From a virus, in IMG/VR virus record IMGVR_UViG_3300036780_000106, positions 1 to 41,989 of that record: a stretch of DNA of 41,989 nucleotides, one strand, 5' to 3'. Position 1 is the stretch's first letter; each line of letters begins with the position of its first letter. The position numbers were made by a program, and so were the translations under genes. The notes below the pieces were generated by a model. The model saw only the letters and a program-made list of their open reading frames with translations, did no database searches and was not told the origin of the DNA. Shown here piece by piece: positions 9,591 to 35,292 of the stretch.

Positions 9591-9602
9591 GATACCCGTA
9601 AC
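9591..9602 (+). promoter_or_regulatory. Conserved element GATACCCGTAAC, copy 1
   Basis: One of five copies of this 12-mer, all in the same orientation. This one lies about 40 bases upstream of the fibre-adaptor ATG, in the gap after the leftward membrane gene. It is a candidate operator, stoperator or phage-specific promoter element. Confidence 0.6.
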
Positions 9603-9641
9603 AGCCTCATGCGGCCCTAGTCTCAAGCCGAGGCCCCTCCC

Positions 9642-10268
9642 ATGACCATCAGCACGACGAACAGGATTGCGGGGCCATTTTCCGGGGACGGAGTCTCCGT
9701 CAATTTTCCGTTCGCGTTCAAGGTCTTCCAGGCCGCGGACTTGCTGGTAACGGAGAACGACGGCACGGATCCTCCGGACAGCGAGCTGGACTATACGGTG
9801 GCGCTGAACGCGGACCAGGACAACAACCCCGGGGGAACGGTCTCGCTGACCTATGCGCTGGCCGTGGGCACGACGCTCACGATCACCAGCGACATTCCCG
9901 CGCTGCAAACCCTCGAGTTAAGCAACGGCGGATCGTTCTACCCTTCGGTGATCAACGCGGCGCTGGACCTGCTGACCATCCTGATCCAGCAGCTGGTCGA
10001 CGCGCAGGCATTCGACCTGCAACTTGCGCCGGGAACGCCCGGAGGCCACGTGCTGAGGTACCTGCCCTGCGCCGGCGCGGTCCCGGGAAATACCTACACC
10101 GCGCCGGGCACGGTGATCGCCGTGGCTTACAACGGCGTGCTGATGCCCTTGGGCGTCGACGCGCCAACGCTGAGTTACACCGTGACCGGGGGCAACGAGA
10201 TCACGCTCAACTTTCAAACGGAGGCCGGCTACCCGCCGGATCGAATCGATGCGTTCATCGCTACGTAA
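9642..10268 (+). CDS. Tail fibre adaptor, T7 gp17 N-terminal-like
   Basis: 208 residues. The N-terminal ~120 residues, with 'RIAGPFSGDGVSVNFPFAFKV' near the start and a late 'ITSDIP...LELSNGGSFYPSVINAALDLL' stretch, match the pattern of the T7 tail-fibre N-terminal domain that docks fibres to the tail. In T7 gp17 this domain is fused to the shaft; here it is a short separate protein just upstream of a long fibre, so it probably acts as the adaptor. The start is preceded by CGAGG about 10 bases upstream. It overlaps the next gene by 20 bases, which suggests translational coupling. Confidence 0.7.
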   Translation: MTISTTNRIAGPFSGDGVSVNFPFAFKVFQAADLLVTENDGTDPPDSELDYTVALNADQDNNPGGTVSLTYALAVGTTLTITSDIPALQTLELSNGGSFYPSVINAALDLLTILIQQLVDAQAFDLQLAPGTPGGHVLRYLPCAGAVPGNTYTAPGTVIAVAYNGVLMPLGVDAPTLSYTVTGGNEITLNFQTEAGYPPDRIDAFIAT

Positions 10269-13200
10269 AGGCTGCAAGCTTCTCGCCATCGTCCTGCTGC
10301 TTACAGCCGCCGCGCGCGCCCAGGTCAATCCGGCCACGCAGATCAGGTGGCCGGCCTGCGCCGGCGGCAACCAGACGTACTCGATCGTGACCGGTACCTG
10401 CATCGCGGTCGGCACTGCGGCGAACCCCGCCGGCTCGAATACCCAGGTGCAGTTCAACTCCGGCGGCATCTTCGCCTCCGATCCGAATTTCACTTTTACC
10501 TATTCCCAGGGCGCGCCGCTGGTCTCGGTGGAAAGCCTCAATTCCGCGACGACGCAGGGACTCGCGACCGGGGTGACCGACCCGCTGATTTACGACACCT
10601 TCGGGCGCTACCCGGCAGGAACGAACATCTGCCCCGGCAACCCCTGCGTGAGCGGATTGGTAACTCTGAGCGGCAACTCGCAATGGATTGTGAACGGGAA
10701 CGCGATCGCCGGCGACACAGCGACAAGCGCGGTGACGAGCACGCCATTCATGTCCCAGCAGGGGGGCCACCTGCAGTTTTCGACCGTGCCCACCGTGGGC
10801 GCGCCGGTGAACTATTACGCCATTTTGCCCAACACGGCCACCGTGGGCGGGACGCCGCAGACCATTCACGAAGTGGGCGCCACGTTTCTCCTTGGCTATA
10901 CGGACCCGACGACGGGCGCCTGCGAAGCGGTGCCGGGGGCGCAGCGGATATTCTCTCCCTCGCTCACGCTGGCCGTGGTGAGCGGCCTCTCTCCCGTCTT
11001 CCAGAACTTGATTCATCTGGAGATCAACCAGGACAAGTACTCGCTCCACGTGGGGCAGACAACGCTCTATCCGTGGACAGCGATCCAGACGATGAACTTC
11101 AACACGCCGCTCTCGGCCGACTGCAAGACCGAATACAAAGTCTCGATGAAGCTGGACCTGGCGGCGGACCTGAGCGGGAACTACCACGTGCTGCTCACGC
11201 TGCCCGATCACGAGGTCGTAGGGCCGATCCCGTTCGCAGCGTCGCTGATCACCGCGCTGCCCACCTACGTGTTTCTGCAGGAGCAGACCCAGCCGGGGTG
11301 GACCCCGGGCTACTGGGGCAGCGTGTGGATGGGGCAGGACGAGAGCGAGAAGCTGGGCGCGAAGGGCGGCGCGGGACAGGACGGCGACATCGGCAACCTG
11401 AACGGCCTGGCGGCCGGCGCGCGATATCAGTACCAGCCGTTTACGGTGCCCACGAGCGCGGGCGGCGGGTGGTACCCATTGGCGCTGGGCCGAGGCATCG
11501 GAGGTACGTGCTGGATTGATGGCACCTTCGATGTGACCGCGGTCTCCGCGGCCGGGATCGAACAGCACGTCATCCTGCAGGCACAGGAATCGAACGCGCA
11601 GGTATCTCCGCGGCTGTTGCAGACTCTGGGCACGATCGCGTTTCCGTTCGACCAGTTCCGGCTTTCTACGGACAACGGCTGCAATCAGCTTCTGGAGGGC
11701 CACCTTTACTCGAATGCCGGCACTTACGCCGACACCATCACGATCCAGGGAAAGGGCGTGTTCGAGCCGGAAATCGGGATCGAGACACAGAACGGCTCGA
11801 CCCCCTGCAGCGGCAACAGCGTGGGCGGCGTTTGCAACACGACCTCGATCACGGTCGCGTCCCAGGACACGCTGAACGCGGTCGTGAACGAGACTACGGA
11901 TTCGGCTTCCGGCTGGAAGACGCTCTTCTACAACGGCCTGAGCTATGCCAACGTCCCCCTCACGGGCCGCTTCGGGCTGATGGCCTACGATGTGAGCACC
12001 TATCTCCAGACCCTGGACATCGATGTGCAGGCCCTGGGCACCCAGAGCGCCGGCTGCTCCATCCCCCGCTACGAAAGCTCGGGCGTGAACGGCGCGGAGC
12101 TCCCGATCGACCAGGTGAGATGTTCCTGGCTGGTGCCGAGCGGAGCGACCTGCAACATCACAGCGTCAGGTAGCGTGTCCGCGGCGAGCTGCTCCGGAGG
12201 GACGAACTACGCGGTGACCAACCCGGCCGGCCGCCAGGAGCAACTCTTCATCAACCAGAGCGGCTGCTCCGGAGCCATCCTGAACATTACCTCCGTAAGT
12301 GGCGGAGCGGTGGCGGGTACCTCGATCTATGCGGCGGGAAGCGGGAGCTGCTCGACGGCCACCGGCGTGGCGACCTACAGCGAAGGGTTAGTGGCGCTCG
12401 ATGCTCATTTCCCGGCGAGCAACAGCGTGAGCATCACCGCACAGAACGGCTTCAGCCTGGGATCGTGGGCGCAGGTGCCGTCGCCAGTGACGGGCGCCGC
12501 GGTGCTGGCCGGAGGGAGCACGGTGCGGCCCCTGGCAGCGCCCGGCAGCGCCTATGCCGGCATCGTGGTCTACACCAGCAATCACACAGCCTCGATGGCG
12601 GACAACGGAAAACTGGTGGTGATGAACTGCGGAAGCGCGTGCGCCTACAACCTGCCCACAACGCAACCGAGCGCCGCGTGGTGGGTGCGGGGCGTGCAGA
12701 GCATCGGGTCAACGCTCGCAACGGTGGGGCTGAGCGGCGGCGACACCTTCAATCAGGGCGCGTCCGCGCCGGCGCTGAACGGCTACGCCTTCGAACCGCT
12801 GTACGCGAACCTCAATCTCTCGACCGACTATATCTCCAACCCGCCGCTGAAGGCCGGTGCGGGGGTCACGCTTACGCCAGGCCCTAACGGCCTCAGCATC
12901 GCCTCGACGGCGGTGTCTAATTTTTCTCCTGGATGCGGAGTGACCGGCGGCAAGTGCCTGTACGCCGCTGGCATCCTGACGCCCGTGCTTTCGACCGGCA
13001 GCGCGGTGACCCTTTACAGCTACACGCTCCCGGGCGGGACGCTGACGGCGACCGGCTGCGTCAACGTGGAAATGTGGGGGCACCATTCGACCGGTACGAC
13101 GACCACGTCCCTTGCGATCGCAATCAGCGGCGCCAGCGTCACGGGCTCGGAGGGAACCAGCGCATCGGAAGCGGTACTGGTGGCGCAGTACTGCAACTTC

Positions 13201-13398
13201 GGATCGACGGGCGCGGGCGGCCAGGTGATCTACCGAAAGCCGTCGAGCTACATCTCCGGAGCGATCCCGGCGCCCGCCGCGACGACGGCGAGCCAGGCCT
13301 CCACCGGAAACCTGACCATCACGGGGACGTTCACGACCTCGGGCGTGCTGGACTACTGGACGCCGGACGGTTTCTTTGTTTACCTCTCACCGCAATAA
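10249..13398 (+). CDS. Long fibre/receptor-binding protein with an apparent signal peptide
   Basis: 1049 residues, directly after and overlapping the adaptor. The N-terminus is basic (MRSSLRKGCK), then hydrophobic (LLAIVLLLTAAARA), with an Ala-x-Ala-like cleavage site before QVNP: a textbook Sec signal peptide, unexpected in a virion part. The body is Gly/Ser/Thr-rich beta-type sequence with many spaced cysteine pairs (CPGNPC, CGSAC), resembling secreted proteins. The C-terminus has the repeated fibre-tip texture (NLTITGTFTTSG). Position after the adaptor and before the lysis genes supports a host-recognition fibre. The start is the only good one in the overlap, but its ribosome-binding site is weak. 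An alternative is a secreted or surface-displayed lysogenic-conversion protein. Confidence 0.6.
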   Translation: MRSSLRKGCKLLAIVLLLTAAARAQVNPATQIRWPACAGGNQTYSIVTGTCIAVGTAANPAGSNTQVQFNSGGIFASDPNFTFTYSQGAPLVSVESLNSATTQGLATGVTDPLIYDTFGRYPAGTNICPGNPCVSGLVTLSGNSQWIVNGNAIAGDTATSAVTSTPFMSQQGGHLQFSTVPTVGAPVNYYAILPNTATVGGTPQTIHEVGATFLLGYTDPTTGACEAVPGAQRIFSPSLTLAVVSGLSPVFQNLIHLEINQDKYSLHVGQTTLYPWTAIQTMNFNTPLSADCKTEYKVSMKLDLAADLSGNYHVLLTLPDHEVVGPIPFAASLITALPTYVFLQEQTQPGWTPGYWGSVWMGQDESEKLGAKGGAGQDGDIGNLNGLAAGARYQYQPFTVPTSAGGGWYPLALGRGIGGTCWIDGTFDVTAVSAAGIEQHVILQAQESNAQVSPRLLQTLGTIAFPFDQFRLSTDNGCNQLLEGHLYSNAGTYADTITIQGKGVFEPEIGIETQNGSTPCSGNSVGGVCNTTSITVASQDTLNAVVNETTDSASGWKTLFYNGLSYANVPLTGRFGLMAYDVSTYLQTLDIDVQALGTQSAGCSIPRYESSGVNGAELPIDQVRCSWLVPSGATCNITASGSVSAASCSGGTNYAVTNPAGRQEQLFINQSGCSGAILNITSVSGGAVAGTSIYAAGSGSCSTATGVATYSEGLVALDAHFPASNSVSITAQNGFSLGSWAQVPSPVTGAAVLAGGSTVRPLAAPGSAYAGIVVYTSNHTASMADNGKLVVMNCGSACAYNLPTTQPSAAWWVRGVQSIGSTLATVGLSGGDTFNQGASAPALNGYAFEPLYANLNLSTDYISNPPLKAGAGVTLTPGPNGLSIASTAVSNFSPGCGVTGGKCLYAAGILTPVLSTGSAVTLYSYTLPGGTLTATGCVNVEMWGHHSTGTTTTSLAIAISGASVTGSEGTSASEAVLVAQYCNFGSTGAGGQVIYRKPSSYISGAIPAPAATTASQASTGNLTITGTFTTSGVLDYWTPDGFFVYLSPQ

Positions 13399-13415
13399 AT
13401 GAAGGGACGCCGCAA

Positions 13416-13709
13416 ATGGACGCGATAGCAAGCAGCATCGACGCGAGGGCGGCCAAGGACGGCGCGCGGCGGGTCTTCCGTCCCGGACCGTCGTGGGCGA
13501 CGATGGCGGCGATGCTGCTATCGGTGACGCTGCCGGCGTGCGGGTGGATGGTCTCGATGTCGAACCGCGTGGCGGCGCTCGAGGTGAAGACCGAATCGCT
13601 GGCCACCGCCGCGCAGATGGCCGAAGTGAAACAGAAAATCGACGATTGGATCGCTGCGTCCGATCGCGAGCGGGAGCACGAGCGGCCGCGCACCAGGGGC
13701 GACCGATGA
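13416..13709 (+). CDS. Holin-like or spanin-like membrane protein
   Basis: 97 residues. A cytoplasmic N-terminus is followed by one hydrophobic span at about 27-47, then a helical, probably coiled-coil segment (50-82) and a charged tail. GAAGGGA lies about 10 bases before the ATG. It overlaps the lysozyme start (ATGA), a typical holin-endolysin arrangement. The LPAC at 39-42 could also be read as a weak lipobox, which would favour a spanin. Sequence alone cannot decide between a class III-type holin and a spanin component. Confidence 0.55.
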   Translation: MDAIASSIDARAAKDGARRVFRPGPSWATMAAMLLSVTLPACGWMVSMSNRVAALEVKTESLATAAQMAEVKQKIDDWIAASDREREHERPRTRGDR

Positions 13710-14182
13710 ACGACACGCTGAACAAGAGCCTGATCGCGGGACACGAAGGGCTGCGCCTGATCCGGTACAAGGACTCGCGCGGCTTCTGGACGATCGGCCG
13801 CGGCTTCAACCTCGAAGCGCCAGGGGCCCTGACGGTGTGCATTGCGGCCGGCGCGGATTACGCCGCGGTGATGACCGGCGCCGCAATCACGCTCGAACAG
13901 TGCGACGCGGTCTTTGAGCTCCAGTACGAGGCGGTGGCCGGGGAAGCGCGCCGGGCGGTGCCGGGCATCGACGGAGATCCGGACAACGCTGGAGCGGTGG
14001 TCTGCGACATGATCTTTGAACTCGGCTTTTCTGGCTTTCTGGCTTTCCACCAGGTAATCGCCGGATTGCTGGCGAGGGACTGGCCGGCGGCGATCGCAGG
14101 CATGAAGGCGTCAAAGTGGGCCACGCAGGTGCCGAGCAGGGAAGAGAACGACGTGGCGCTCCTGGAGGCCCTGAGTGGCTAG
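13706..14182 (+). CDS. Endolysin, GH24 phage lysozyme
   Basis: 158 residues. It has the classic T4-type lysozyme catalytic triad with correct spacing: E14 (GHEGLRL), D23 (YKD) and T29 (WTIGRGFN). It hydrolyses the beta-1,4 bond between N-acetylmuramic acid and N-acetylglucosamine in peptidoglycan to release progeny. There is no N-terminal signal, so export should depend on the upstream holin candidate, with which it overlaps by four bases. The ATG at 13706 is preferred because it gives the normal family N-terminus. The downstream gene starts within its last codons. Confidence 0.92.
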   Translation: MNDTLNKSLIAGHEGLRLIRYKDSRGFWTIGRGFNLEAPGALTVCIAAGADYAAVMTGAAITLEQCDAVFELQYEAVAGEARRAVPGIDGDPDNAGAVVCDMIFELGFSGFLAFHQVIAGLLARDWPAAIAGMKASKWATQVPSREENDVALLEALSG

Positions 14183-14381
14183 CGCGGTCGCGGCGGTGAT
14201 CCTGGCCACTTCCCACGGGAGCGCGTTCTGCGCGGATCTGCGGCCCATGACGGAGAACGAGCTTCTGGCCGCGCGGGTGCGGCAGCTCGAGGAGCTGGTG
14301 AGAGCCCAGGAACGGACGATCGCCGAGATTGTGAACGAGCGCGACGCGGCGCGGCTGCTGAACGAACTTTGTCACTACTGA
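14175..14381 (+). CDS. Small signal/TM plus coiled-coil protein, possible spanin
   Basis: 68 residues from a GTG start overlapping the lysozyme stop, with GGAGG about 8 bases upstream. The first ~20 residues are hydrophobic (signal or anchor). The rest (ENELLAARVRQLEELVRAQE onwards) is a heptad-type helix. An anchored coiled-coil protein right after the endolysin fits an Rz-like inner-membrane spanin, although it is shorter than usual. The later ATG at 14247 has no ribosome-binding site and would remove the hydrophobic part. Confidence 0.5.
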   Translation: MASAVAAVILATSHGSAFCADLRPMTENELLAARVRQLEELVRAQERTIAEIVNERDAARLLNELCHY

Positions 14382-14393
14382 AAGGGACCCGAG

Positions 14394-14585
14394 ATGCGAG
14401 ACGAACTGAGGCGCAACTTCCTGGGCTTCGTGCTGCTCGTCGCGGGCGTGGGGATGGTGCTGCTCGGTGCCCGCGTCCAGATCAACAAGCTGTCGGATGC
14501 AGGCTTCGGATTTATCGGCATGGCCGGCCTGGCGCTGCAGGTGACGCCCCCAAAACAGCCGGCGCCGACCGTAACCGCGCCATGA
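14394..14585 (+). CDS. Small two-TM membrane protein, holin/antiholin candidate
   Basis: 63 residues with two hydrophobic segments (about 9-27 and 36-49), a basic N-terminus and a Pro-rich tail. AAAGGGA precedes the ATG by about 8 bases. It sits in the lysis cassette and its stop overlaps the next ATG (ATGA). The topology suits a holin or antiholin; which of the three small membrane proteins in the cassette makes the hole is not decidable from sequence. Confidence 0.55.
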   Translation: MRDELRRNFLGFVLLVAGVGMVLLGARVQINKLSDAGFGFIGMAGLALQVTPPKQPAPTVTAP

Positions 14586-15190
14586 ACCTCGCCATCCTCT
14601 CTTTTTTCAGGAATGCCGGCACGGCCGAGGCGACGCCCTCGCGGAGCGCACCACCGGTGAGCCGGCCTGCGATCTACTGGGATCACGTAGACAGCCCCGG
14701 CGATTTAGACCTGGCGCCGACCAACGCGGCGCCGGCGCGCGAGCCGGCTCCAACCATTGAACCAGCAACCGCACCCGCAGCACAGGAGAAGTCGATGGCG
14801 AATAAGTTTGTGAGTTTTCTCGAGGCGGCAGGCAAGGACGTAGAGAAGAGCCTGGCGTTTGCCGTGAAAGAAGCGCCTACAGTGGACAAGCTGGCAGCGG
14901 CCTTGTGGCCTCCCACAATTGCGATTTCCGCTCCCGCGACCGCCGCGCTGAACCTGATCCAGAATTCGGTCATCGCGATCGAGCAGAAGTATGCCGCGGC
15001 GGGCGTGCAATCCGGAACCGGCGCGCAGAAGGCCGCCGAGGTGCTCACCCTGGCCGGCCCAGCTGCAACCCAGTTGCTGACCGCCGCAGGCGTTCCAGCC
15101 AGCGAAGAGGGCTACGTCGAGGGCGTCATCGATGCCGTAGTCGGCGTCCTGAACGTGCAGACGCCGGCGCCAACGCCGGCCGCAGCCTAA
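14582..15190 (+). CDS. Conserved phage protein with an internal start
   Basis: 202 residues from ATG 14582. The first ~70 residues are Pro/Ala-rich and low in complexity. A second, in-frame ATG at 14795 has AGGAG about 5 bases upstream and begins a well-structured helical domain (MANKFVSFLEAAGKDVEK). That second start may give the main 131-residue product, with the longer form as a fusion or alternative. The helical part includes alternating hydrophobic stretches and the sequence QKYAAAGVQSGTGAQKAAE. I do not recognise a function; its position suggests a lysis-associated or late accessory role. Confidence 0.55.
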   Translation: MNLAILSFFRNAGTAEATPSRSAPPVSRPAIYWDHVDSPGDLDLAPTNAAPAREPAPTIEPATAPAAQEKSMANKFVSFLEAAGKDVEKSLAFAVKEAPTVDKLAAALWPPTIAISAPATAALNLIQNSVIAIEQKYAAAGVQSGTGAQKAAEVLTLAGPAATQLLTAAGVPASEEGYVEGVIDAVVGVLNVQTPAPTPAAA

Positions 15191-15193
15191 GCC

Positions 15194-15880
15194 ATGAAGA
15201 GGCTGCAATCCATCCTGATAGCCCTCGCGCTGGCCACCGTGCCCTGCGTGGGGGCTGTCGCGATCCGCGCGCTGTGGCCGATACCGGCCGCGGTGGCCAC
15301 GGGGAGCGCGCAGGTGAATCGAGTGCTCGACAGCTCCAAGTTTGTCGAGACGATTGCCGGCGTCGCGATCGCGACCGAAAGCGTGCGGCTGAACCGGAGC
15401 CTCGACAACCTGGACCGGCAGGTGGCGGCCATCGGGCCGGCCGTGAGAAAAGTGGATCCGGTCCTCGACAAACTGGGCCACTCGATCGACCTGGCAAACG
15501 CGCCCTGCGTGCCGGGACCGTGCGGCACCTTCGCCGATGTAGGGAAGACGCTGAACACAGTGCGCGGGACCTTCGGCCAGATCGAGGTCGCGGCCGACCA
15601 CGAGAACCGCAACCTCGCCACGCTCGACCTGCAGGAGGCGACGCTCTTCGCCGACTTCCACGGTACGGCGACCAGGGCCAACACCAGCCTCGACACGTTC
15701 AACGGGCTGCTGGCCAGGCCGAGCGTGACGCTGATGCTCGACAACGGCGGCAAGTTTACGACCACCGCCGTGGCCGTCGAGGAGAAGCTGGCCGCGTGCA
15801 CGCTGCACCCCACGCTTCCATGCGTGCTGAAGAGCGACATCCTCTTCGGGGCGCAGGTGGGCGGCTACCTACTGAAATAA
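15194..15880 (+). CDS. Membrane-anchored protein of unknown function
   Basis: 228 residues. A basic N-terminus (MKRLQ) and one long hydrophobic segment (about 6-32) form a signal anchor. The remainder is predicted periplasmic, with long amphipathic helices (QVNRVLDSSKFVETIAG; VRLNRSLDNLDRQVAAIG) and two cysteine pairs (CVPGPC and CTLHPTLPC). The start lies 3 bases after the previous stop, so it is the last gene of the rightward lysis operon. The shape recalls chemoreceptor-like or phospholipid-transport anchors, but no family is recognised. Confidence 0.5.
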   Translation: MKRLQSILIALALATVPCVGAVAIRALWPIPAAVATGSAQVNRVLDSSKFVETIAGVAIATESVRLNRSLDNLDRQVAAIGPAVRKVDPVLDKLGHSIDLANAPCVPGPCGTFADVGKTLNTVRGTFGQIEVAADHENRNLATLDLQEATLFADFHGTATRANTSLDTFNGLLARPSVTLMLDNGGKFTTTAVAVEEKLAACTLHPTLPCVLKSDILFGAQVGGYLLK

Positions 15881-15896
15881 CCGAGACCGGGACCGA

Positions 15897-16166: not shown

Positions 16167-16219
16167 GGGTTTCTCCTTTTTTGGGGCAAGACAACTTTAG
16201 TCCAATCGGCGCCACGGGC

Positions 16220-16230
16220 GATACCCGTAA
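16220..16230 (+). promoter_or_regulatory. Conserved element GATACCCGTAA, copy 2
   Basis: Same 11 bases as the other copies, with G instead of C at position 12. It lies between the divergent Tad2-like gene and the 16303 gene, immediately before a strong hairpin. Confidence 0.55.
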
Positions 16231-16235
16231 GCGGG

Positions 16236-16271
16236 TTGCTGATCTCTAGCCTTGGGGCTAGAGCTCAGCAA
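16236..16271. other. Strong hairpin in the 16.2 kb intergenic region
   Basis: The arms TTGCTGA-T-CTCTAGCC and GGCTAGAG-C-TCAGCAA enclose a TTGG loop: 15 paired bases with one T/C mismatch. There is no T-run on either side, so it is not a standard intrinsic terminator. It could be an operator dyad or an RNA structure in the 5' leader of the 16303 gene. Confidence 0.55.
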
Positions 16272-16283
16272 AACTGAAACAGC

Positions 16284-16302: not shown

Positions 16303-16809
16303 ATGGAAAGCGGCACTGCGCCGGAAACGGCGCCCACACCAAAGCAGATCGACGAGCTGATCGCGGAGTACGCGGCGGCGCAGAACGAGGCCGCGGCGCT
16401 TGGAGCGGCGGCAAAACTTCTCTCCGACAAGGCCGGCGAGATCAAGGCAAGCCTGACGGCGACGGTGGAGCGGTGGGGCGCGAGGCACACCGAGAAATCG
16501 AAGCGGCTGGCCGGGCTGCGTCACCTGGCGCAGACCACGACGGCCACGCGGGTCTCGATCGACGATGCGGCCGTCGAGAAGCTGCGCGCGTACCTGGGCA
16601 CGACGGAGACGCCGGAGCTGGCGCAGGAGTTCTTTGTGGCGCACACCAGCTACAGCCTGGTGAGCGGGCCGGGCGACAAGCTGAAGACCCTGACCATGGG
16701 TACGCGCCTGCGCACAAAGATCACAGGCATGCTCAAAGGCTGCTTCACCATCAAGACCAGCGCTCCCTCCCTCAAGGTGGAGTTGGCGGAGCTGAAGCCG
16801 GCGGTCTGA
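16303..16809 (+). CDS. Hypothetical protein with N-terminal coiled coil
   Basis: 168 residues. Residues about 12-55 form an Ala/Glu/Lys-rich helix, probably coiled coil. The C-terminal half has mixed alpha/beta character and ends with an FTIKTSAPSLKVEL strand pattern. This outline is vaguely like phage accessory proteins of the Gp157 type, but I do not assign it. The ATG is preceded by a run of G acting as ribosome-binding site. It is the first rightward gene after the conserved element and hairpin, so it probably responds to them. Confidence 0.6.
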   Translation: MESGTAPETAPTPKQIDELIAEYAAAQNEAAALGAAAKLLSDKAGEIKASLTATVERWGARHTEKSKRLAGLRHLAQTTTATRVSIDDAAVEKLRAYLGTTETPELAQEFFVAHTSYSLVSGPGDKLKTLTMGTRLRTKITGMLKGCFTIKTSAPSLKVELAELKPAV

Positions 16810-16813
16810 CGCC

Positions 16814-17032: not shown

Positions 17033-17941
17033 TCAGTAGACCAGCAGGTCGTTTGGCGTGTGCTCCAGGTTGAGATCCGTTCCCAGGTAGCGCTGGGTGG
17101 TGCGAACGTCCGCGTGGCCAAGCATGAACTGGATCTGCTCGATGTCGGCGCCCCGGGCCCGGCAGAGCTTGGCGCAGGTGCGCCGAAGGTCGTGAGGACC
17201 AAAGCGGGGAATCCCGATCCCGGCAGCTGTCTGGTGAACGATGTGCCAGATGGTTTGGGCGGTAAGCCCGGCCGGCCCGAGAGTGGTCTGCCGGATCAGG
17301 CGTCCCTCGCGGATCTTCGCGGCGGCGAGCCAGGCATCGATGGCCTGTTTCACCCAGGCCTGGACCCCGACGGTGCGGACCCTGCCGCCCTTGCTGACCA
17401 GGTCGGGAAGTACCCAACGGCCGGCGCGGCGCTGGACGTCGGCGACGTTGAGCGTGGCGAGCTCGTCCCGGCGCAGCGCGCAGCCCACCAGCATAGCCAG
17501 GATGCAGTAATTCCGAAGGCCTCGCAGCGTCTTTCGATCGGGCACCGCGAGCAGCCTGCGGACCTGCGCCTCGGTGAGCCAGTTGCCGGCGCGGGATCCG
17601 CGCCGAGGAAGGCCGCCGACGCGGAGCAGGTCCGTCGCCTGCTGCGCATCGATCGCGCCCGAGGCCTGCGCCTCTCGGATCAGGGCACGCGCCGCGGAGA
17701 TGCGCAGGTTGACGGTCGAAGCGGAGGATCCGGCCGCCTTCATGGAGCCGCGCCATTCGAGCAGCATGATCCGGGTGATGGGCTCGCCGTCGGCGAAGGC
17801 GAGCAGGTCGGCGATGCCGCGGGCGTAGCTCTGGCGCGTGTTGGGCGACGGGACCGCGGCCAGAACCAAATTTGTGAGGGAGGTTGCTCGGGCGCCTTCC
17901 GGCAGCAGCCAGGGCGCGGGTTTGGTTTGGGTGGTGGGCAT
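17033..17941 (-). CDS. int: Tyrosine-recombinase integrase
   Basis: 302 residues. The N-terminal ~115 residues form a SAM-like core-binding domain (NTRQSYARGIADLLAFADG). The catalytic domain has the full set: R157 (ALRRDEL), K184 (SKGGR), H250-x-x-R253 (HDLRRT), H276 (GHADVRTTQRYLG) and nucleophile Y285. It should integrate and excise the phage at a host attachment site. No long arm-binding domain is evident, so it is of the shorter XerC/D-like type. The start ATG has no Shine-Dalgarno and lies close to a TAAACT -10-like hexamer, so its leader would be very short. The attachment site itself was not recognised. Confidence 0.92.
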   Translation of the reverse strand: MPTTQTKPAPWLLPEGARATSLTNLVLAAVPSPNTRQSYARGIADLLAFADGEPITRIMLLEWRGSMKAAGSSASTVNLRISAARALIREAQASGAIDAQQATDLLRVGGLPRRGSRAGNWLTEAQVRRLLAVPDRKTLRGLRNYCILAMLVGCALRRDELATLNVADVQRRAGRWVLPDLVSKGGRVRTVGVQAWVKQAIDAWLAAAKIREGRLIRQTTLGPAGLTAQTIWHIVHQTAAGIGIPRFGPHDLRRTCAKLCRARGADIEQIQFMLGHADVRTTQRYLGTDLNLEHTPNDLLVY

Positions 17942-22020: not shown

Positions 22021-22641
22021 ATGATCATCACCGTAGCGAGCTACAAAGGCGGGGTGGGAAAGACCACGACGGCGGTGCACCTGGCCGCCTATCTCCAGAG
22101 CCTGGGGCCGGCGCTGCTGCTCGATGGCGACCAGACACGCAACGCCACGGCGTGGTCGGAGCGCGGCGACGGGTTCCCATTCCGAGTGGCGCCGATTGAC
22201 CAGGCCGCGAAGCTGGCGCGCCACTTCCGGCACATCGTGATCGACACCGGGCAGCGGCCGAGCGGCGATGACCTGAAGGCCGCGGCGGAGGGGTGCGATC
22301 TGCTGGTGGTGCCGACCATTCCCGGCGCGCTCGAGACGGACGGGCTGGGACAGACGGTGCGGGCGCTGCAGGGCGTCAACGCATTCTTCCGCGTCCTGCT
22401 GACCTCGGTGCCTCCCGACGCGGCGAAGGAAGCGGCCGAGCTGCGCAGCCTGCTGGCAGCGGCGCACGCCCCGGTGTTCGAGTGCGAGATTCCGCGGCTG
22501 AAGGCTTTCAAGAAGGCCGCGGGCGCCGGCTGCATCGTGTGGCAGGCGAGGGATCGCGAGGCCGCGCGGGCCTGGGCGTGTTGCGAGGCTGTCGGGCGGC
22601 AACTGAGGGCGATCGAGTTGAAGATGGCGGTGCGGGCATGA
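22021..22641 (+). CDS. parA: ParA-type partition ATPase
   Basis: 206 residues. The deviant Walker A is KGGVGKTTT (9-17), the A' motif is LLLDGDQT (32-39) and the Walker B is HIVIDTG (about 71-77), as in the small ParA/MinD-like ATPases. No N-terminal HTH is present, which is the type Ib layout, where the small partner protein does the DNA binding. The ribosome-binding site GGAAGGAGGAG is very strong. It overlaps the downstream partner by ATGA. Role: ATP-dependent segregation of a low-copy replicon, suggesting an extrachromosomal prophage phase or segregation of replicating phage. Confidence 0.88.
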   Translation: MIITVASYKGGVGKTTTAVHLAAYLQSLGPALLLDGDQTRNATAWSERGDGFPFRVAPIDQAAKLARHFRHIVIDTGQRPSGDDLKAAAEGCDLLVVPTIPGALETDGLGQTVRALQGVNAFFRVLLTSVPPDAAKEAAELRSLLAAAHAPVFECEIPRLKAFKKAAGAGCIVWQARDREAARAWACCEAVGRQLRAIELKMAVRA

Positions 22642-27894: not shown

Positions 27895-28272
27895 ATGCGC
27901 GCGCCGCGGCCCTTGCGGGTCGCGGTGAACGAGCAAGGCCGCAGGATCGGCGAGACGCACCACAACGCGCTTATTCCGGACGCCGTGGTAGACCAGATGC
28001 GCGGCCGCCACGAAGACGACGGAATCGGCTACCGGGAAATAGCCCGGGAATTCGGGCTGAAGCTGCCGGCGGTCAGCAAGATCTGCACCTACCAGCGCAG
28101 GGCGCAGACGGCCGAGCGGTGGAAGACGATCCGAGCCGGCTCCGATCCGATCAGCCGAGAGAGAGCGGGCGGCGGAGATCATCCCCGCAACCCGCCGGGC
28201 CCGGACAGGAACGCGACGAACCGCTGCGACGATACCCGTAACCCTCCGGCGCTGCCCTACAAAGGGAAGTAA
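27895..28272 (+). CDS. HTH DNA-binding phage protein
   Basis: 125 residues from ATG 27895, which lies after a G-rich leader; a GTG at 27808 would extend it by 29 residues with no clear signal. 'RVAVNEQGRRIGETHHNALI' and 'GIGYREIAREFGLKLPAVSK' form the helix-turn-helix of a widespread phage regulatory family near packaging genes. The C-terminal ~35 residues are Pro/Arg/Asn-rich and contain DTRN, encoded by a copy of the GATACCCGTAAC element, so that copy is inside the gene. The protein may bind packaging or regulatory sites just downstream. Confidence 0.6.
   Translation: MRAPRPLRVAVNEQGRRIGETHHNALIPDAVVDQMRGRHEDDGIGYREIAREFGLKLPAVSKICTYQRRAQTAERWKTIRAGSDPISRERAGGGDHPRNPPGPDRNATNRCDDTRNPPALPYKGK
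28231..28242 (+). promoter_or_regulatory. Conserved element GATACCCGTAAC, copy 3
   Basis: The only copy inside a predicted gene (3' end of the HTH gene); it is about 307 bases upstream of the small terminase gene, ahead of the packaging and head operon. Confidence 0.55.
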
Positions 28273-28548
28273 CGATATGCGGTCTCGTAACGCCTTCTGA
28301 TTTTGGAAGCCCTTTCAAAGCCCGAATTGCACATTTTGAAACACAGCATCGCGATGCAAAGTATCCGAAGTCTGGGATTGATAACGTGCGGCAGTATCTC
28401 GGGCGTAAGGCGCTTCGACGGGCGCTTACCTGAAGGTGAGCGACGCGGAGGCCTCGGCGGCGGTGACTGGAGCTTTCGGCCCCTCGGAGCCGGTTTGAAA
28501 ATGTGTGTATTCAAAACAATCAACCAGGCCTCCTTGAGGAGCCGCTAG
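28273..28548. other. Dyad-rich region before terminase; cos/pac candidate
   Basis: No convincing gene. It holds a perfect palindrome GCATCGCGATGC (28346-28357), a 13-base near-perfect inverted pair CACATTTTGAAAC (28330-28342) and GTTTGAAAATGTG (28493-28505), and a stem GTAAGGCGC/GCGCTTAC (28405-28429). The first ~130 bases are AT-richer than the surroundings. This placement and structure fit a terminase recognition site. A TTG-started frame (28303-28548) exists but has no ribosome-binding site. Confidence 0.45.
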
Positions 28549-29043: not shown

Positions 29044-29045
29044 CT

Positions 29046-29345: not shown

Positions 29346-29533
29346 AGCTGTTCCAGCCTGGCAACAAGAAGGCTGTCACGGGGCGTATTGTCGCCGGGCC
29401 GGGCCGGCACTTCACCGCAGCCAACGTTGAAGCGGCACTGCGGGAGTATGCGGAGAAGGTGGAAGCCGCGATGCCGGACCGGTACCGGATCGTCCAGGTC
29501 GGCCGCGCGGCGTTCAACTTCGTGCGCGTTTGA
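29321..29533 (+). CDS. Conserved small phage protein
   Basis: 70 residues from a GTG with AAGGAAG upstream. Small alpha/beta protein (QAIEIKLFQPGNKKAVTGRI then NVEAALREYAEKVEA). Its TGA overlaps the TTG start of the large terminase gene, so translation is coupled. Function unknown. Confidence 0.6.
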   Translation: MLIQAIEIKLFQPGNKKAVTGRIVAGPGRHFTAANVEAALREYAEKVEAAMPDRYRIVQVGRAAFNFVRV

Positions 29534-31035
29534 CAGCCGGGCTCGAGCGCGCCACGGCGAGGATCCGCGAGTGGAAGCTCGACCCGGTTCAGTTCGTGCG
29601 CGACAACTTTCACGCCGAGCCCGACCCCTGGCAGCACGACGTGCTCGACCTCATGGGCAAGCCTGGGCGCAAGCGCATCGCCATGAAAGCCTGTGCCGGC
29701 CCCGGCAAGACGGCGGTGCTGGCGTGGGCGGGCTGGCATCGCATGGTGTGTTTCGCCGCGCCGAACGAGCACCCCAAGGGTGCCGCGATCTCGATCACGG
29801 GCGACAACCTGCGCGACAACCTGTGGTCGGAGCTGGCGCGTTGGCAGAACGAATCGCCATTCCTGCTGAACGCCTTCCAATGGAACGCGCAGCGCATCAC
29901 GGCGAAGGACCATCCCGAGACCTGGTTCCTGGCTGCGAAGGGTTGGGCCAAGTCCGCAGACATGGATCAGATCGGGCGCACGCTGTCCGGACAACACGCG
30001 CGCTTCCCGTTCTATTTGATCGATGAATCGGGCGACATTCCGCCGAACATGATCAAGAGCGCGGAGCAGGGGCTCACGTCGTGCGAAGACGGCCTCATCA
30101 TCACCGCCGGCAACACCACATCGCAGACGGGCCTGTTGTACGAGGTCTCGACCCGGGGGCGCAGCCAACGCGATGCGGCTGGAGACCCGCTGTGGGAAGT
30201 CGTCTCGATCACTGCCGATCCGGACGACCCGAAGCGCACGCCGCGCGTCGATATCGAGTGGGCGCGCCAGCAGGTCGCACTCTACGGCCGCGAGAACCCG
30301 TGGGTGATGGCATACATCCTGGGACTGTTCCCGCCTGGCTCGATCGACGCGCTGCTATCCGCGGACGACGTGGAGAAGGCGATGAACCTGCATCCCCGGC
30401 CCGAGACCTTCAGCTGGGCGCAGAAGCGGATCGGCGTGGACGTGGCGCGATTCGGCGACGACCGCACAGTACTGTTCCCGCGCCAGGGCATAGCCGCCAT
30501 GACGCCCCGGATCATGCGGCACCCGCGCGACTCGGCTGTGTCCGTGAACATCGCCGGCGCGGTGATGAGCAAAAAGATGGAGTGGGCGCAACCCACCGCG
30601 TTTGGCGAGGAAGAGATTCTCTCGTTCTTCGACGACACCGTGGGATGGGCGCACGGCGCGGTGGACGTGATGCGCGCGGCGGGACACCAGGTCTACGCGG
30701 TGCAGTTCAACGGCCCGGCAAACGACCCCCGCTACTTCAACCTGCGCGCGGAGATGTGGATGAAGATGGCGGACTGGGTCAAGGCGGGAGGATCGCTGCC
30801 CAACATCCCGGAGCTGGTGAGCGAGCTGAGCGCGCCAACCTACTTCTTCCACGGGGGAAAGTTCCAGATCGAATCGAAGGAACAGATCAAGAAGCGGCTG
30901 GGCCGGTCGCCGGATCTGGCCGACGGGCTGGCGCTGACGTTCGCGATCCCTGACGCCCCGGCCGGGATGACCAAGCTGCCAGGCATGGGCCGGCGCGAGA
31001 CGCCGAAGGCTTACGACCCGTACGCGGCTATTTGA
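29530..31035 (+). CDS. terL: Terminase large subunit
   Basis: 501 residues from a TTG that overlaps the previous stop. ATPase: Walker A-like KACAGPGKT (53-61) and Walker B FYLIDESGD (161-169, acidic pair D165-E166). Nuclease: RNase H-like metal centre with D304 (GVDVARFGDD), acidic residues near FFDDTVGWAHGAVDVM (367-382) and SPDLADGLAL (460-469). It drives ATP-dependent DNA packaging and cuts concatemers. Full length and intact. The leftward 31011 gene overlaps its 3' end by 25 bases. Confidence 0.93.
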   Translation: MTAGLERATARIREWKLDPVQFVRDNFHAEPDPWQHDVLDLMGKPGRKRIAMKACAGPGKTAVLAWAGWHRMVCFAAPNEHPKGAAISITGDNLRDNLWSELARWQNESPFLLNAFQWNAQRITAKDHPETWFLAAKGWAKSADMDQIGRTLSGQHARFPFYLIDESGDIPPNMIKSAEQGLTSCEDGLIITAGNTTSQTGLLYEVSTRGRSQRDAAGDPLWEVVSITADPDDPKRTPRVDIEWARQQVALYGRENPWVMAYILGLFPPGSIDALLSADDVEKAMNLHPRPETFSWAQKRIGVDVARFGDDRTVLFPRQGIAAMTPRIMRHPRDSAVSVNIAGAVMSKKMEWAQPTAFGEEEILSFFDDTVGWAHGAVDVMRAAGHQVYAVQFNGPANDPRYFNLRAEMWMKMADWVKAGGSLPNIPELVSELSAPTYFFHGGKFQIESKEQIKKRLGRSPDLADGLALTFAIPDAPAGMTKLPGMGRRETPKAYDPYAAI

Positions 31036-31307
31036 GGCGCCACAGCGGATCGACGCCGCACTCCTTCAGCAGATCGCTGAGCGTCCGCCCACTCAGTTCT
31101 GGCGCGGCCGAGGATCTCAACCGGAAGAACCGCACCGACGAGCTCGCTCATCCGGCACGCTCCGGACTGGTAATCGACAGCGTCCAGCAAAAGCTGCAGC
31201 GCGCGCACCAGTGCACGGGAAAGTATCGCCAGATCGTCGACGGGATCCGCGTTGGGCCGGCTGAGAATCTTATTCGCAAGCTCTCGGGCGTCGTCTCTCT
31301 CGCTCAT
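31011..31307 (-). CDS. Small leftward protein between terL and portal genes
   Basis: 98 residues; helical with a polar C-terminus. GGAGG precedes the ATG at 31305-31307. 'NADPVDDLAILSRALVRALQ' is a helix pattern. It is coupled to the leftward gene upstream (ATGA) and runs into the terminase end. Function unknown. Confidence 0.55.
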   Translation of the reverse strand: MSERDDARELANKILSRPNADPVDDLAILSRALVRALQLLLDAVDYQSGACRMSELVGAVLPVEILGRARTEWADAQRSAEGVRRRSAVAPQIAAYGS

Positions 31308-31567
31308 TTAACGGCCTCCGCGTTCTTCGCAGCCTGCCCGATCTGGTACGGCATCCACTCGCAGAACGCGCTCTCCGGCCGGAGGCCTTCGCCCTGGAAC
31401 AAGAACACGGAGGTGTGGCTCACGGGAATGCTGTAGCCATCGAAAACGCCCAGGTTGACCATGGTGTCAGAGTGAACTGAAGCGACGATCGCAGCCAGGG
31501 GCTGCTCCGTTCGCGCTTGCATCTTCGGCCAGAACCACACGACGCGGCCTACGGTCGGCTTGATCAT
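31304..31567 (-). CDS. Conserved phage protein (leftward)
   Basis: 87 residues. The pattern IKPTVGRVVWFWPKMQAR, LAAIVASVHSDTMVNLGVFD and CEWMPYQIGQAAK matches a small protein family that recurs in podoviruses and siphoviruses of alpha- and betaproteobacteria. GGAGGAG lies 11 bases before the ATG. It is divergent from the 31632 gene, with the conserved element in between. Role unknown. Confidence 0.65.
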   Translation of the reverse strand: MIKPTVGRVVWFWPKMQARTEQPLAAIVASVHSDTMVNLGVFDGYSIPVSHTSVFLFQGEGLRPESAFCEWMPYQIGQAAKNAEAVK

Positions 31568-31591
31568 TTGCGGGGGTCTCCTCCTATCGAG

Positions 31592-31603
31592 GATACCCGT
31601 AAC
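31592..31603 (+). promoter_or_regulatory. Conserved element GATACCCGTAAC, copy 4
   Basis: It lies in the 64-base gap between divergent genes, 28 bases before the acetyltransferase-like ATG. Confidence 0.6.
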
Positions 31604-31631
31604 AGGGCAGGGGCGCTCTACCCTTGGAACC

Positions 31632-32120
31632 ATGAGCACACCCTCCATACGGCGGGTCAGTTATTCCGAGATTCTCGGCGCGGGCAACGCGCAGGAGCTG
31701 ATCGAGGAGTACGCCGCCGAGTGCTCCATCCCCCAGCTCGGCCAGGTCGAGCCGCAGGCTGAGACCTATGCCAAGCTCGAGGCCGCGGGCCTGATGGCCT
31801 GCTTCGCCGCCTATGAGCCGTACGACACGCCGGCCGGCGACGTGCCGCGGCTGATCGGGTTCGGGGCCGTACTCGTATCCGCGCAGCCCCACTACGGCGG
31901 CCGCAAAGTGGCGATGGTCGAGAGCCTGTTTGTGGCCCGGCAGCGGCGCAGGAGCGGTGCGAGCGGACAGCTGATGCATTGGATCGAACAGCACGCGGCC
32001 GAGGCTGGATGCGTTGCCGTCCTCTATTCGGCGCCGGCCTACAGCCGGTTTGCCAAGGTGCTGGCCGCGAGCCACACGCATGTGTGCACCAACGTGGTCT
32101 ACGCGCGGGGGCTGAATTGA
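31632..32120 (+). CDS. GNAT-family acetyltransferase-like protein
   Basis: 162 residues. 'VAMVESLFVARQRRRSGASG' followed by QLMHWIEQHAAEAGC gives the acetyl-CoA-binding beta4-alpha3 region (R/QxxGxG/A-like: RRRSGASG). The tail YSAPAYSRFAKVLA fits the last strands of GNAT folds. Such proteins are often found beside portal genes in podoviruses; their substrate is unknown. The ATG has only a weak ribosome-binding site. It starts the operon behind the conserved element. Confidence 0.7.
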   Translation: MSTPSIRRVSYSEILGAGNAQELIEEYAAECSIPQLGQVEPQAETYAKLEAAGLMACFAAYEPYDTPAGDVPRLIGFGAVLVSAQPHYGGRKVAMVESLFVARQRRRSGASGQLMHWIEQHAAEAGCVAVLYSAPAYSRFAKVLAASHTHVCTNVVYARGLN

Positions 32121-32557
32121 GCGCCCTCACGGTGCAGGCACGAGTCGGGGCGACGAGCGTGGAGCTGCTGCAGACGATTCGGACCTTCGAAACCGCGGCG
32201 ATGAACGCCGCGCAGGCTCACGTCGAGATGGAGCACCTGCTGCACGGTGGCATGTACTCGAGGACCGCGCGGGTCAAGGCGGGAACGGTGATCACGGGAG
32301 CGCTGATCAAGCGCGCCACCGTGCTGATCGTCCAGGGCGACGCGCTGATGCTGATGAACGGCGGATTCGCCGAATTGAGCGGGTACAACGTGTTCGCGGC
32401 TTCAGCGGGGCGCAAGCAGGTATTCGTTGCCCGCGGCGACGTGACCATCACGATGATCTTCCCCAGCGCAGGCACGACTGTGCAGGACGCCGAAGCCGAA
32501 TTCACCGATGAAACCGACCTGCTGCTGACGCGCCGCGAAGGGGAGCCGAGAGCATGA
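32117..32557 (+). CDS. Conserved phage protein, cupin-like
   Basis: 146 residues from a TTG overlapping the previous stop (TTGA). 'HLLHGGMYSRTARVKAGTVI' then TGALIKRATVLIVQGDALML and AGRKQVFVARGDVTITMIF give a beta-barrel pattern of cupin type. The last part (AEAEFTDETDLLLTRR) is a strongly conserved tail in relatives near head genes. No catalytic claim. Coupled to both neighbours. Confidence 0.65.
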   Translation: MSALTVQARVGATSVELLQTIRTFETAAMNAAQAHVEMEHLLHGGMYSRTARVKAGTVITGALIKRATVLIVQGDALMLMNGGFAELSGYNVFAASAGRKQVFVARGDVTITMIFPSAGTTVQDAEAEFTDETDLLLTRREGEPRA

Positions 32558-32802
32558 GCCTGATCACCAAACTGGTGATTTACACAAGCGAGGCGGAGCT
32601 GGAGAAGCACGCGGCCAGCTACCCATGCCTGGTGAACTACATCCCGTTTACCAAAACGGGAGACCTCGACGATGGATGCGGGCACTATGCGCGCGTAACT
32701 TTTGTGGCTGTGGATCCAACCAGCCAGGAGCCCAGCCTGCCGGCGGCCGAGTTCGACAACGTGGAGTTTGTCGGATTCCCCATGCCGAGGCTGCAGAAGT
32801 AG
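32554..32802 (+). CDS. Hypothetical small protein
   Basis: 82 residues. The ATG overlaps the previous stop. Starts SLITKLVIYTSEAELEKHAA and ends EFDNVEFVGFPMPRLQK. Mixed alpha/beta, no motif. In the pre-portal cluster, so probably a minor head or accessory protein. Confidence 0.55.
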   Translation: MSLITKLVIYTSEAELEKHAASYPCLVNYIPFTKTGDLDDGCGHYARVTFVAVDPTSQEPSLPAAEFDNVEFVGFPMPRLQK

Positions 32803-32812
32803 GGAGCTGAGC

Positions 32813-33163
32813 ATGTCGGGAATCACAACAGCAACGGCCATCGCGCTGGGCTCGCTCGCGGTGGGCGCGGTAGGGACCGGCGTCGCCGCCTACAACGGCA
32901 TGCAGTCCAGCGACAGCCAGAAGGCGGCACTCAAGGCGCAGACCACGACCCAGCAGACGGCCACGGCCGCGGCGCTATCGACGGAGCGCAAGAACGAGAC
33001 AGCGACGAACGCCGCGAACCAGAAGGCGCCCGACGTCTCGGCCATCCTGAGCCAGGCTGCGAACGCCTCGAAGGTTGGAATCGGATCCACCATGCTGACC
33101 GGCCCGGGCGGCGTGAGCAACGGCAGCCTGAGCCTGGGCAAGAGCACGCTGCTGGGGGGCTAG
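32813..33163 (+). CDS. Small hydrophobic-N-terminus protein before the portal
   Basis: 116 residues. The first ~27 residues form a Gly/Ala hydrophobic segment (ATAIALGSLAVGAVGTGVAA), then Ala/Thr/Gln-rich helix, then a TMLTGPGGVSNG tail ending GKSTLLGG. That tail pattern recurs in small pre-portal proteins of podoviruses. GGGAG lies about 7 bases before the ATG. Possibly a minor virion or ejected protein. Confidence 0.6.
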   Translation: MSGITTATAIALGSLAVGAVGTGVAAYNGMQSSDSQKAALKAQTTTQQTATAAALSTERKNETATNAANQKAPDVSAILSQAANASKVGIGSTMLTGPGGVSNGSLSLGKSTLLGG

Positions 33164-33167
33164 GGAA

Positions 33168-34868
33168 ATGCCAGATAACAACCAGAGCCGCCAGCAGGCG
33201 ATCCTGCGCTGGGGGCAGCTCAAGACGGAGCGGTCGAGCTGGTGGACGCACTGGCAGGAAATCACCACCTACCTGCTGCCGCGCAACGGGCGCTACTTCC
33301 GCCAGGACCGCGACAAGGGCAACCGGCGCGACAAGAACATTTACGACAACACCGGCATCCGCGCGCTGCGCACGCTGGGAGCGGGGCTCATGGCCGGCGC
33401 CACGTCGCCGGCGCGGCCGTGGTTCCGGCTGGGGACGCCGGATCCGGACCTGAACGACTTTCAACCGGTAAAGCTGTGGCTCGACGACGTCTCGAAGCGC
33501 ATGCACATGATCTTCCAGAAGTCGAACACCTATCGGGCGCTGCACCAGATGTACGAGGAGCTGGGCGCGTTCGGGACGGCCTCATCCATCATCCTTCCCG
33601 ACTTCCAGAACGTGATCCACAATTACCCGCTAACAATCGGGGAGTATGCGATCGCCACGAACGCCCAGGGCAACGTGTGCACGCTCTACCGAGAGTTCGA
33701 GATGCCGGTCTCCGCGATGGTCAAAGAGTTCGGGTCCGCCAACTGCTCGAGCACCGTCCGCTCTCTGTACGACTCGGGCAAGGGCCTGGACCAGTGGATC
33801 CCGGTCATCCATGCGATCGAGCCCAGAGCCGACCGCGACCCAGCGCGGAAGAACGCACGCAACATGGCCTGGAGATCCATCTATTTTGAGTTGAGCGGAG
33901 ACTCGAGCCTCCTGCTGCGCGAAAGCGGGTTTTTGCAGTTTCCCGCGGTGTGCCCGCGCTGGGCGGTCGCCGGCGGCGATATCTACGGGAATTCGCCGGG
34001 CATGGAAGCCCTGGGCGACATCAAGCAGCTGCAGCACGAGCAGCTGCGCAAGGCCAACGCGATCGATTACCAGAGCAACCCGCCCCTGCAGGTGCCAACC
34101 TCCATGAAGAACCAGGACGTGAACCGTCTGCCCGGCGGGATCACGTACATGGACCCCGGCGCCGGCGGCGCGGAGATCAAGACGGCGTTCGACGTGCACC
34201 TGGATCTTGAGGACTTGCTCGCCGACATTCGCGACTGCCGCGCGCGCATCAACTCGGCGTTCTTCGCGGACATGTTCCTGATGCTCGACTCGAACACCGG
34301 CCCGCAAATGACGGCGACCGAAGTGGCGGAGCGCCACGAAGAGAAGATGCTGATGATCGGCCCGGTGCTGGAGCGCATCTCGAACGAGCTGCTCTACCCG
34401 CTGGTTGAAACAACTTTCACGCACATGCTGGAAGCGGGTCTTGTGCCCCCGCCGCCGCCGGACATGCAGGGACAATCGCTGAACATCGAGCTGATCGGAA
34501 TACTGGCGCAGGCGCAGCGCGCGATCGGCACCAACTCCATCGATCGCTTTGTACAGCAGATGGGCGTGGTGGCGCAGGCGAAGCCTGAGGTGCTGGACAA
34601 CTTCGATCCGGATCAGTGGGCGGACATTTACAGCGACAGCCTGGGCGTGGATCCGAAGCTGATCGTGGCTTCTAGCCAGGTGGCTATGGTCCGGCAGGCG
34701 CGCGCCAAGGCACAGGCCGCGCAGGCACAGGCCGCCGCCGCGCAGCAGCAGTCGCAGACGGCGAAGAACCTGGCGCAGTCGCCAACGCAGGGCGGCCGGT
34801 CGAACGGGCTCCAGGACATGATGAACCAATACAGCGGCTACGGCTCGCCTTCGGGCGCCGAGGTCTAA
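33168..34868 (+). CDS. Portal (head-to-tail connecting) protein
   Basis: 566 residues. N-terminus with 'WGQLKTERSSWWTHWQEITT' and YLLPRNGRYF, and body motifs LGAGLMAGATSPARPWFRLG and FGTASSIIL, are characteristic of head-tail connector portals of podoviruses. The dodecameric ring forms the packaging and ejection channel. C-terminal ~60 residues are Ala/Gln-rich. Three pieces of this gene (33439-33489, 33537-33601, 34801-34841) are repeated in the next gene. Confidence 0.93.
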   Translation: MPDNNQSRQQAILRWGQLKTERSSWWTHWQEITTYLLPRNGRYFRQDRDKGNRRDKNIYDNTGIRALRTLGAGLMAGATSPARPWFRLGTPDPDLNDFQPVKLWLDDVSKRMHMIFQKSNTYRALHQMYEELGAFGTASSIILPDFQNVIHNYPLTIGEYAIATNAQGNVCTLYREFEMPVSAMVKEFGSANCSSTVRSLYDSGKGLDQWIPVIHAIEPRADRDPARKNARNMAWRSIYFELSGDSSLLLRESGFLQFPAVCPRWAVAGGDIYGNSPGMEALGDIKQLQHEQLRKANAIDYQSNPPLQVPTSMKNQDVNRLPGGITYMDPGAGGAEIKTAFDVHLDLEDLLADIRDCRARINSAFFADMFLMLDSNTGPQMTATEVAERHEEKMLMIGPVLERISNELLYPLVETTFTHMLEAGLVPPPPPDMQGQSLNIELIGILAQAQRAIGTNSIDRFVQQMGVVAQAKPEVLDNFDPDQWADIYSDSLGVDPKLIVASSQVAMVRQARAKAQAAQAQAAAAQQQSQTAKNLAQSPTQGGRSNGLQDMMNQYSGYGSPSGAEV

Positions 34869-34882
34869 GGGAGGCAGGCGCG

Positions 34883-35275
34883 ATGGTCGACATGAAGATG
34901 AGCAAGGCCGAGGCGAAAGAGCAGTGCACGCCATCGGATCCGGACCTGAACGACTTTCAACCGGTAAAGCTGTGGCTCGGCGACGCGCTGCACCAGATGT
35001 ACGAGGAGCTGGGCGCGTTCGGGACGGCCTCATCCATCATCCTTCCCGAACGGGCTCCAGGACATGATGAACCAATACAGCGGCTACCGGGCATCGGCGA
35101 CGACGTGAACCTGGGCGACGAGGTCGCGATCACGGCCAAGGCGACGGTGACCTCGAAGAGCGGCTACCAGACGATGATGGGCGACTCGGAGATGAGCCTC
35201 TCGCTGCAGATCACCGACATGGAAGTGAGCGGCGGATCGAGCAAGTCGGCGAAGGCCCTCTACGACAAATCCTGA
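34883..35275 (+). CDS. Capsid-staple-like protein with portal-derived insert
   Basis: 130 residues. The N-terminus MVDMKMSKAEAKEQCTP and the C-terminal part GDEVAITAKATVTSKSGYQ and SLSLQITDMEVSG match the ends of a small family adjacent to portal genes whose members I recall as capsid staple proteins. The normal middle is absent; instead 51 codons (34935-35087) are copied from the portal gene. Blocks A and B keep the portal frame and block C is read in another. GGGAGG lies before the ATG. The frame is intact, but folding and function are doubtful. An assembly artefact has to be excluded. Confidence 0.6.
   Translation: MVDMKMSKAEAKEQCTPSDPDLNDFQPVKLWLGDALHQMYEELGAFGTASSIILPERAPGHDEPIQRLPGIGDDVNLGDEVAITAKATVTSKSGYQTMMGDSEMSLSLQITDMEVSGGSSKSAKALYDKS
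34935..35087 (+). repeat. 153-bp compressed copy of portal-gene segments
   Basis: Block A 34935-34985 equals 33439-33489 with one mismatch. Block B 34985-35049 equals 33537-33601 exactly. Block C 35047-35087 equals 34801-34841 exactly. The order is as in the portal gene, as if a duplicate lost 33490-33536 and 33602-34800. The B/C junction has 3 bases of microhomology. Confidence 0.9.
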
Positions 35276-35280
35276 GGGCC

Positions 35281-35292
35281 GATACCCGTAAC
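35281..35292 (+). promoter_or_regulatory. Conserved element GATACCCGTAAC, copy 5
   Basis: It lies 5 bases after the staple-like stop and 16 bases before the ATG of the Bbp19-like gene, ahead of scaffold and capsid genes. Confidence 0.6.

Follow-up and report, generated by a model that had tools for sequence, protein, structure and literature searches.

Five copies of a 12-mer and their promoter context

The DNA analyzed here, referred to as the window, comprises an entire stand-alone viral record (41,989 bases), and all window counts are confined to that contig. It contains a tail-fibre-adaptor operon, a gene at 16303, a packaging (terS/terL) operon, an acetyltransferase-portal operon and a Bbp19/scaffold/capsid operon. 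A small HTH protein is encoded at 27925-28272 (plus strand), just upstream of the terminase genes. Both a tyrosine integrase (17033-17941, minus strand) and a ParA-type ATPase (22021-22641, plus strand) are encoded as well. The 12-mer GATACCCGTAAC occurs exactly at 9591, 28231, 31592 and 35281, and a copy with one mismatch, GATACCCGTAAG, is found at 16220. All five are on the plus strand, in agreement with the first-pass annotation, and four are intergenic, as had also been claimed; the fifth, at 28231, lies within the 3′ end of the ORF at 27925-28272. It had been supposed that such a recurrence would not arise by chance, and a count of matches with no more than two mismatches bears this out, with 7 in the window against 1.04 expected and none of 100 shuffled sequences reaching 7.

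When the five copies were aligned with their flanks, a hexamer was found exactly 15 nt after each 12-mer: TAGTCT (9618-9623), TAGCCT (16247-16252), TACAAA (28258-28263), TACCCT (31619-31624) and CATGAT (35308-35313). If these hexamers are numbered -12 to -7, GATACCCGTAAC occupies -39 to -28 and its CCCGTA coincides exactly with the -35 slot, at a spacer length of 17 bp. Four of the five hexamers carry an A at -11 and a T at -7, the exception being TACAAA, and the earlier statement that no conserved -35/-10 surrounds the repeat was therefore mistaken. This arrangement strongly supports a reading of the repeats as the upstream halves of promoters. A reading of the element as a dimer site or inverted repeat, GATAC-CC-GTAAC, was dropped because among relatives the right half changes independently of the left.

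The element of the tail-fibre-adaptor operon (9591-9602) precedes a gene that starts with the ATG at 9642. At the promoter of the 16303 gene (element at 16220-16231), an inverted repeat, TTGCTGATCTCTAG..CTAGAGCTCAGCAA, covers the spacer, the -10 and the start region. Promoters inside inverted repeats were seen in two cases: this one (16235-16272), in which the arms covary among G000, G001 and G003, and that of BPP-1 bbp9 (L146, near 6130-6175), in which the inverted repeat ends in TTTTT and is terminator-like. The packaging-operon element (28231-28242) is the one mentioned above that lies within the HTH ORF, and its -10-like position reads TACAAA in the window, TATAAA in G003 and TAGCAT in G001. 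At what would be the start of the packaging transcript there is a conserved 7-codon mini-ORF, MRSRNAF (28277-28300, plus strand), which takes the form MRSRYAL in G001, MRFRYAF in G003 and MRNRYGF in L051. In these three (from about 5360 in G001) the mini-ORF overlaps a tyrosine recombinase-like ORF of ~180 aa; the middle of this ORF has been lost in the window, and end fragments only are present at 28277-28548.

The two remaining elements, before the acetyltransferase-portal operon (31592-31603) and the Bbp19/scaffold/capsid operon (35281-35292), are followed by the start codons ATG 31632 and GTG 35321, each 7-8 nt past the -10 hexamer and coinciding with the predicted +1/+2. Because the start codon sits at the expected transcription start, the mRNAs of both operons are predicted to be leaderless. 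Translation of the Bbp19-type gene most likely starts at GTG 35321 and not at the upstream ATG 35309: sequence conservation with relatives at the N-terminus begins only at the GTG. As a separate observation, pieces of the portal gene (33168-34868) from 33439-33601 have been copied at 98-100% identity into 34935-35087. The copies lie in the N-terminal half of an ORF at 34883-35275, the C-terminal half of which matches Gp10-like/phrog_825.

The element in related phages

A scan with the capsid protein gave 23 related contigs. In near relatives the motif precedes the acetyltransferase gene and is also present ~1,050 nt ahead of the capsid gene. Where contigs extend over the packaging operon, the 16303 gene or the fibre adaptor, it is found before these too; the fibre-adaptor promoter of the window also precedes the homologous gene in G001 and G003. 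The first-pass annotation had made its proposal depend on the presence of the motif at equivalent positions in related phages, and it is indeed found there, ahead of the corresponding operons. Strict sites number 4-6 per genome in eight near-complete genomes, among them G000, and occur only on the late strand. Upstream of bbp19 and of further late units in zth2-2, Limnohabitans phage DC33 and two metagenome-derived records, ctEw122 and ctQRb9, the sequence GGTRCCCGTAWN is found at an identical spacing, and sites precede tail-fibre units in these four as well as bbp9 in BPP-1. Dozens of related podoviruses have this promoter ahead of the corresponding operons. A megablast comparison of the window with known phages gave short patches only, and de novo searches for repeated words in distant loci gave nothing useful. 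The taxonomy of the DC33 record (PQ492659.1, L148) places this phage in Inoviridae, although its gene content is that of a tailed phage of the BPP-1 kind.

Matches to the 12-mer were collected with a weight matrix from 118 sequences and made non-redundant. On the late strand, 54 of 73 matches are accompanied by an A at -11 together with a T at -7, and on the opposite strand 2 of 18 are (Fisher, 1.4e-6). Position -12, which was outside the selection criteria, is a T in 45 of these 54 sites, and the spacer positions hold little information. The -35 slot of the 54 sites is CCCGTA or a near variant and is never TTGACA-like, and the distance from the element to the -10 is a constant 15 nt across Bordetella, Limnohabitans and uncultivated phages. 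Both features of a sigma70-type promoter with a substituted -35 are present, namely a -10 hexamer with T at -12, A at -11 and T at -7, and a constant spacing. A start codon lies at the predicted +1/+2 in 27 of the 54 non-redundant sites; the remaining ones, which mostly belong to fibre and packaging units, have a leader. We also scanned all 5-mers at -34 to -30 before nAnnnT-N6-RTG, using the window together with 88 loci that came from the HTH scans described below (89 sequences in all). CCGTA was the top word, with 18 occurrences against 0.36 expected and nothing comparable on the other strand, in a scan that is only partly independent because the spacing was learned on a subset of the same sequences.

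The small HTH protein and its covariation with the element

Among the proteins that had been named as possible binders of the repeat, a Crp-like one does not fit, because its gene (27098) is private to the window, with no tblastn match in any motif-carrying relative. Two other candidates for a shared regulator, the rep region and the phrog_1590 protein (19043), also gave no tblastn match in these relatives. An HTH protein had been named as well, and here the small one at 27925-28272 would fit, as judged by its co-occurrence with the element; we propose it as the activator of the five promoters. It has a conserved domain of ~69 aa with the pattern NExGRRIGETHHNA...YERRAQT..WK, and translation may in fact begin a few codons before 27925. 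A tblastn search with the window genes detected this protein in the motif-bearing genomes that cover its region (in G002 and G004-G007 the element is present, but the contigs stop short of the HTH position), and homologues were detected in Caulobacter phages and in BPP-1, where the homologue is Bbp27, annotated only as an 'endonuclease'. Scans that combined the pattern with tblastn gave 36 loci at first and 226 matches subsequently; 80 of the latter were retained. The loci are on viral contigs, apart from one in a Gallionella MAG, the single locus returned by the scan of genome_contigs.

With a matrix trained only on sites of other genes, the canonical element was recognized upstream of bbp19 in 21 of the 26 clusters that have the HTH gene and in none of the 8 relatives that lack it (G010, G012, G017, G018, G023, epsilon15, Tyrion and HU1), a difference with a Fisher probability of 7e-5. 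In several of the HTH-lacking relatives bbp19 comes directly after the preceding gene, and therefore the bbp19 promoter itself is missing. The candidate regulator is present where the element is and absent where it is not, with four exceptions: the HTH-bearing clusters L079 and L084, which have no recognizable element ahead of bbp19; G010, which lacks the HTH gene and carries one strict site; and G020. In the last of these (loci L041-L043) the repeated element ahead of bbp19 and the fibre adaptor is another one, CCGTATACGCA; the bbp19 promoter reads CCGTATACGCA, 17 nt, TAGTCT, 6 nt, ATG, and the HTH protein is very divergent (38 bits).

The predicted structure of the HTH protein has a helical core, at moderate confidence (pLDDT 66.5). 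A fold search of the PDB with this model gave no significant match (best E 0.24); the match to 5fgm (sigma region 4; E 0.33) was non-significant as well, and we make no claim of likeness. Searches of Pfam and PHROGs, even at E≤10, returned only sub-threshold generic HTH matches, including Sigma70_r4; there was also a sub-threshold match to phrog_836, 'late transcriptional activator'.

The sequence of the element varies with that of the HTH protein. Bbp27, at 43.5% identity, is paired with a variant element, GGTGCCCGTGCC, and BPP-1 carries four perfect copies of this variant, before bbp26, bbp24, bbp19 and bbp9. The element of Caulobacter phage RapA is GGTGCGCATGAT and that of G021 is GGTGCGCATAGG; in both, the HTH protein is altered after the recognition helix and the K-I-C-x-Y-(E/Q)-R-R pattern of most others is lost. 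The variants of BPP-1, RapA and G021 were found by inspection upstream of the expected genes and should be weighed accordingly. In a Mantel test with 23 taxa, HTH and element distances were correlated with r=0.57. The partial correlation given Bbp19 distance was 0.45 (p=0.0002), and that between Bbp19 and element given HTH was 0.15. The element sequence follows HTH distance better than Bbp19 distance, as would be expected if element and regulator coevolved, with shared ancestry only partly removed by the partial tests.

A proposed late-gene regulon and its alternatives

As a whole, these results make it likely, in our judgment, that the family shares a late regulon, with host RNA polymerase recruited by an HTH activator of the phage that stands in for the -35 contact. 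The five copies in the window would be -35-region elements of coordinated late promoters used by this polymerase, with the host sigma factor reading the TAnnnT -10 hexamer. GRTRCCCGTAAN would take the place of the TTGACA contact and would be bound by the small HTH protein, made before the late phase, which would position or hold sigma region 4 or RNA polymerase. The packaging, portal, capsid, tail-fibre and 16303-gene operons would then be switched on together, and the acetyltransferase and Bbp19 operon mRNAs would begin at the start codon itself. Binding of the element by the HTH protein, its action as an activator and not as a repressor, its contact with RNA polymerase and the exact start sites are all inferred from the sequences.

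The main rival holds that the element is an operator from which a phage protein, be it the small HTH protein or some other, represses the late promoters at the -35 until induction. A repressor at this place would be expected to have the same footprint, operators that overlap the -35 are a common arrangement, and the co-occurrence of the HTH gene with the element and their covariation fit a repressor equally well. Activation is nevertheless likelier because a usable -35 hexamer is absent: with CCCGTA or a near variant in this slot at all 54 sites, the promoters would be weak unaided. Further, the HTH gene heads the late cluster by the terminase genes and is not beside a lysogeny switch, and in BPP-1 cI is a separate gene, bbp32. 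We therefore regard repression as unlikely. Still less probable is a reading of the element by the host, through an alternative sigma factor or an activator, with no phage protein involved. The window ORFs that were scanned included no recognizable sigma factor or RNA polymerase, and some ECF sigmas have -35 elements that end in AAC, both of which would suit a host factor. However, the -10 has the housekeeping TAnnnT signature, the element is common to phages of different hosts (Bordetella, Limnohabitans and the Gallionella MAG), phages of the same family without the HTH gene lack it, and it tracks the HTH sequence better than that of a structural protein. The first-pass annotation had offered a phage-specific promoter, which stands, alongside L5-type stoperators or boundary repeats that block or delimit transcription; L5 stoperators are likewise short, asymmetric, of one orientation and intergenic, but they are repressor-bound terminating sites without promoter context, whereas these repeats hold a spacing fixed to the base with a -10 (and, in half of the sites, with a start codon) and precede operons at equivalent positions in relatives, so that this reading is very improbable.

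Phage activators that replace -35 contacts are already known. Lambda CII, Mu Mor/C and P2 Ogr act at promoters with poor -35 elements, and their sites differ in sequence and position from the window element. Genes for RinA/ArpU-type late activators of Gram-positive phages lie, like the HTH gene, close upstream of terminase genes. RinA is described in PMC9867676 as a phage-encoded activator linked to packaging, a likeness to the protein proposed here; no RinA/ArpU membership was found for the HTH protein in Pfam or PHROGs, even at E≤10. In T4, the MotA box replaces the -35 upstream of a host sigma70 -10, is centered at -30 and lies 12 bp ± 1 from the -10 (PMC2988021). The proposed system is alike in that a box for a phage protein replaces the -35 at a nearly fixed spacing above a host -10. 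It differs in that the window element is centered at about -33.5, lies 15 bp from the -10, has a CCCGTA core where MotA boxes have TGCTT, and serves late genes; the small HTH protein had no detected relation to MotA, and no counterpart of AsiA was identified, in a comparison made without a profile search. Also close is the system of BPP-1 (Rauchvirus), which has the same late gene order, the Bbp27 homologue and four perfect GGTGCCCGTGCC promoters, including that of bbp9, although its element differs from that of the window at several positions. In the open-access literature, a scope that left out the original BPP-1 genome paper, we found no description of the family, of the element and its promoter, of the predicted leaderless late mRNAs or of phage Bbp27.

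A bolder version, which we offer only tentatively, is that the HTH mini-protein is a detachable replacement for sigma region 4 that leaves the host RNA polymerase with its sigma but retargets it to late promoters, of which about half would yield leaderless mRNAs. The same system would drive the late genes of BPP-1, and perhaps, through the promoter of bbp9, the gene next upstream of mtd, also mtd and the diversity-generating retroelement. At the level of individual genes, the analysis corrects two start codons, to 35321 in the window and to about 26255 for bbp26 of BPP-1. More broadly, it predicts leaderless late mRNAs in proteobacterial phages and proposes a late-gene switch for a large phage group that includes BPP-1, the model for diversity-generating retroelements, where the direct prediction is that Bbp27 would act on four identical 12-mers.
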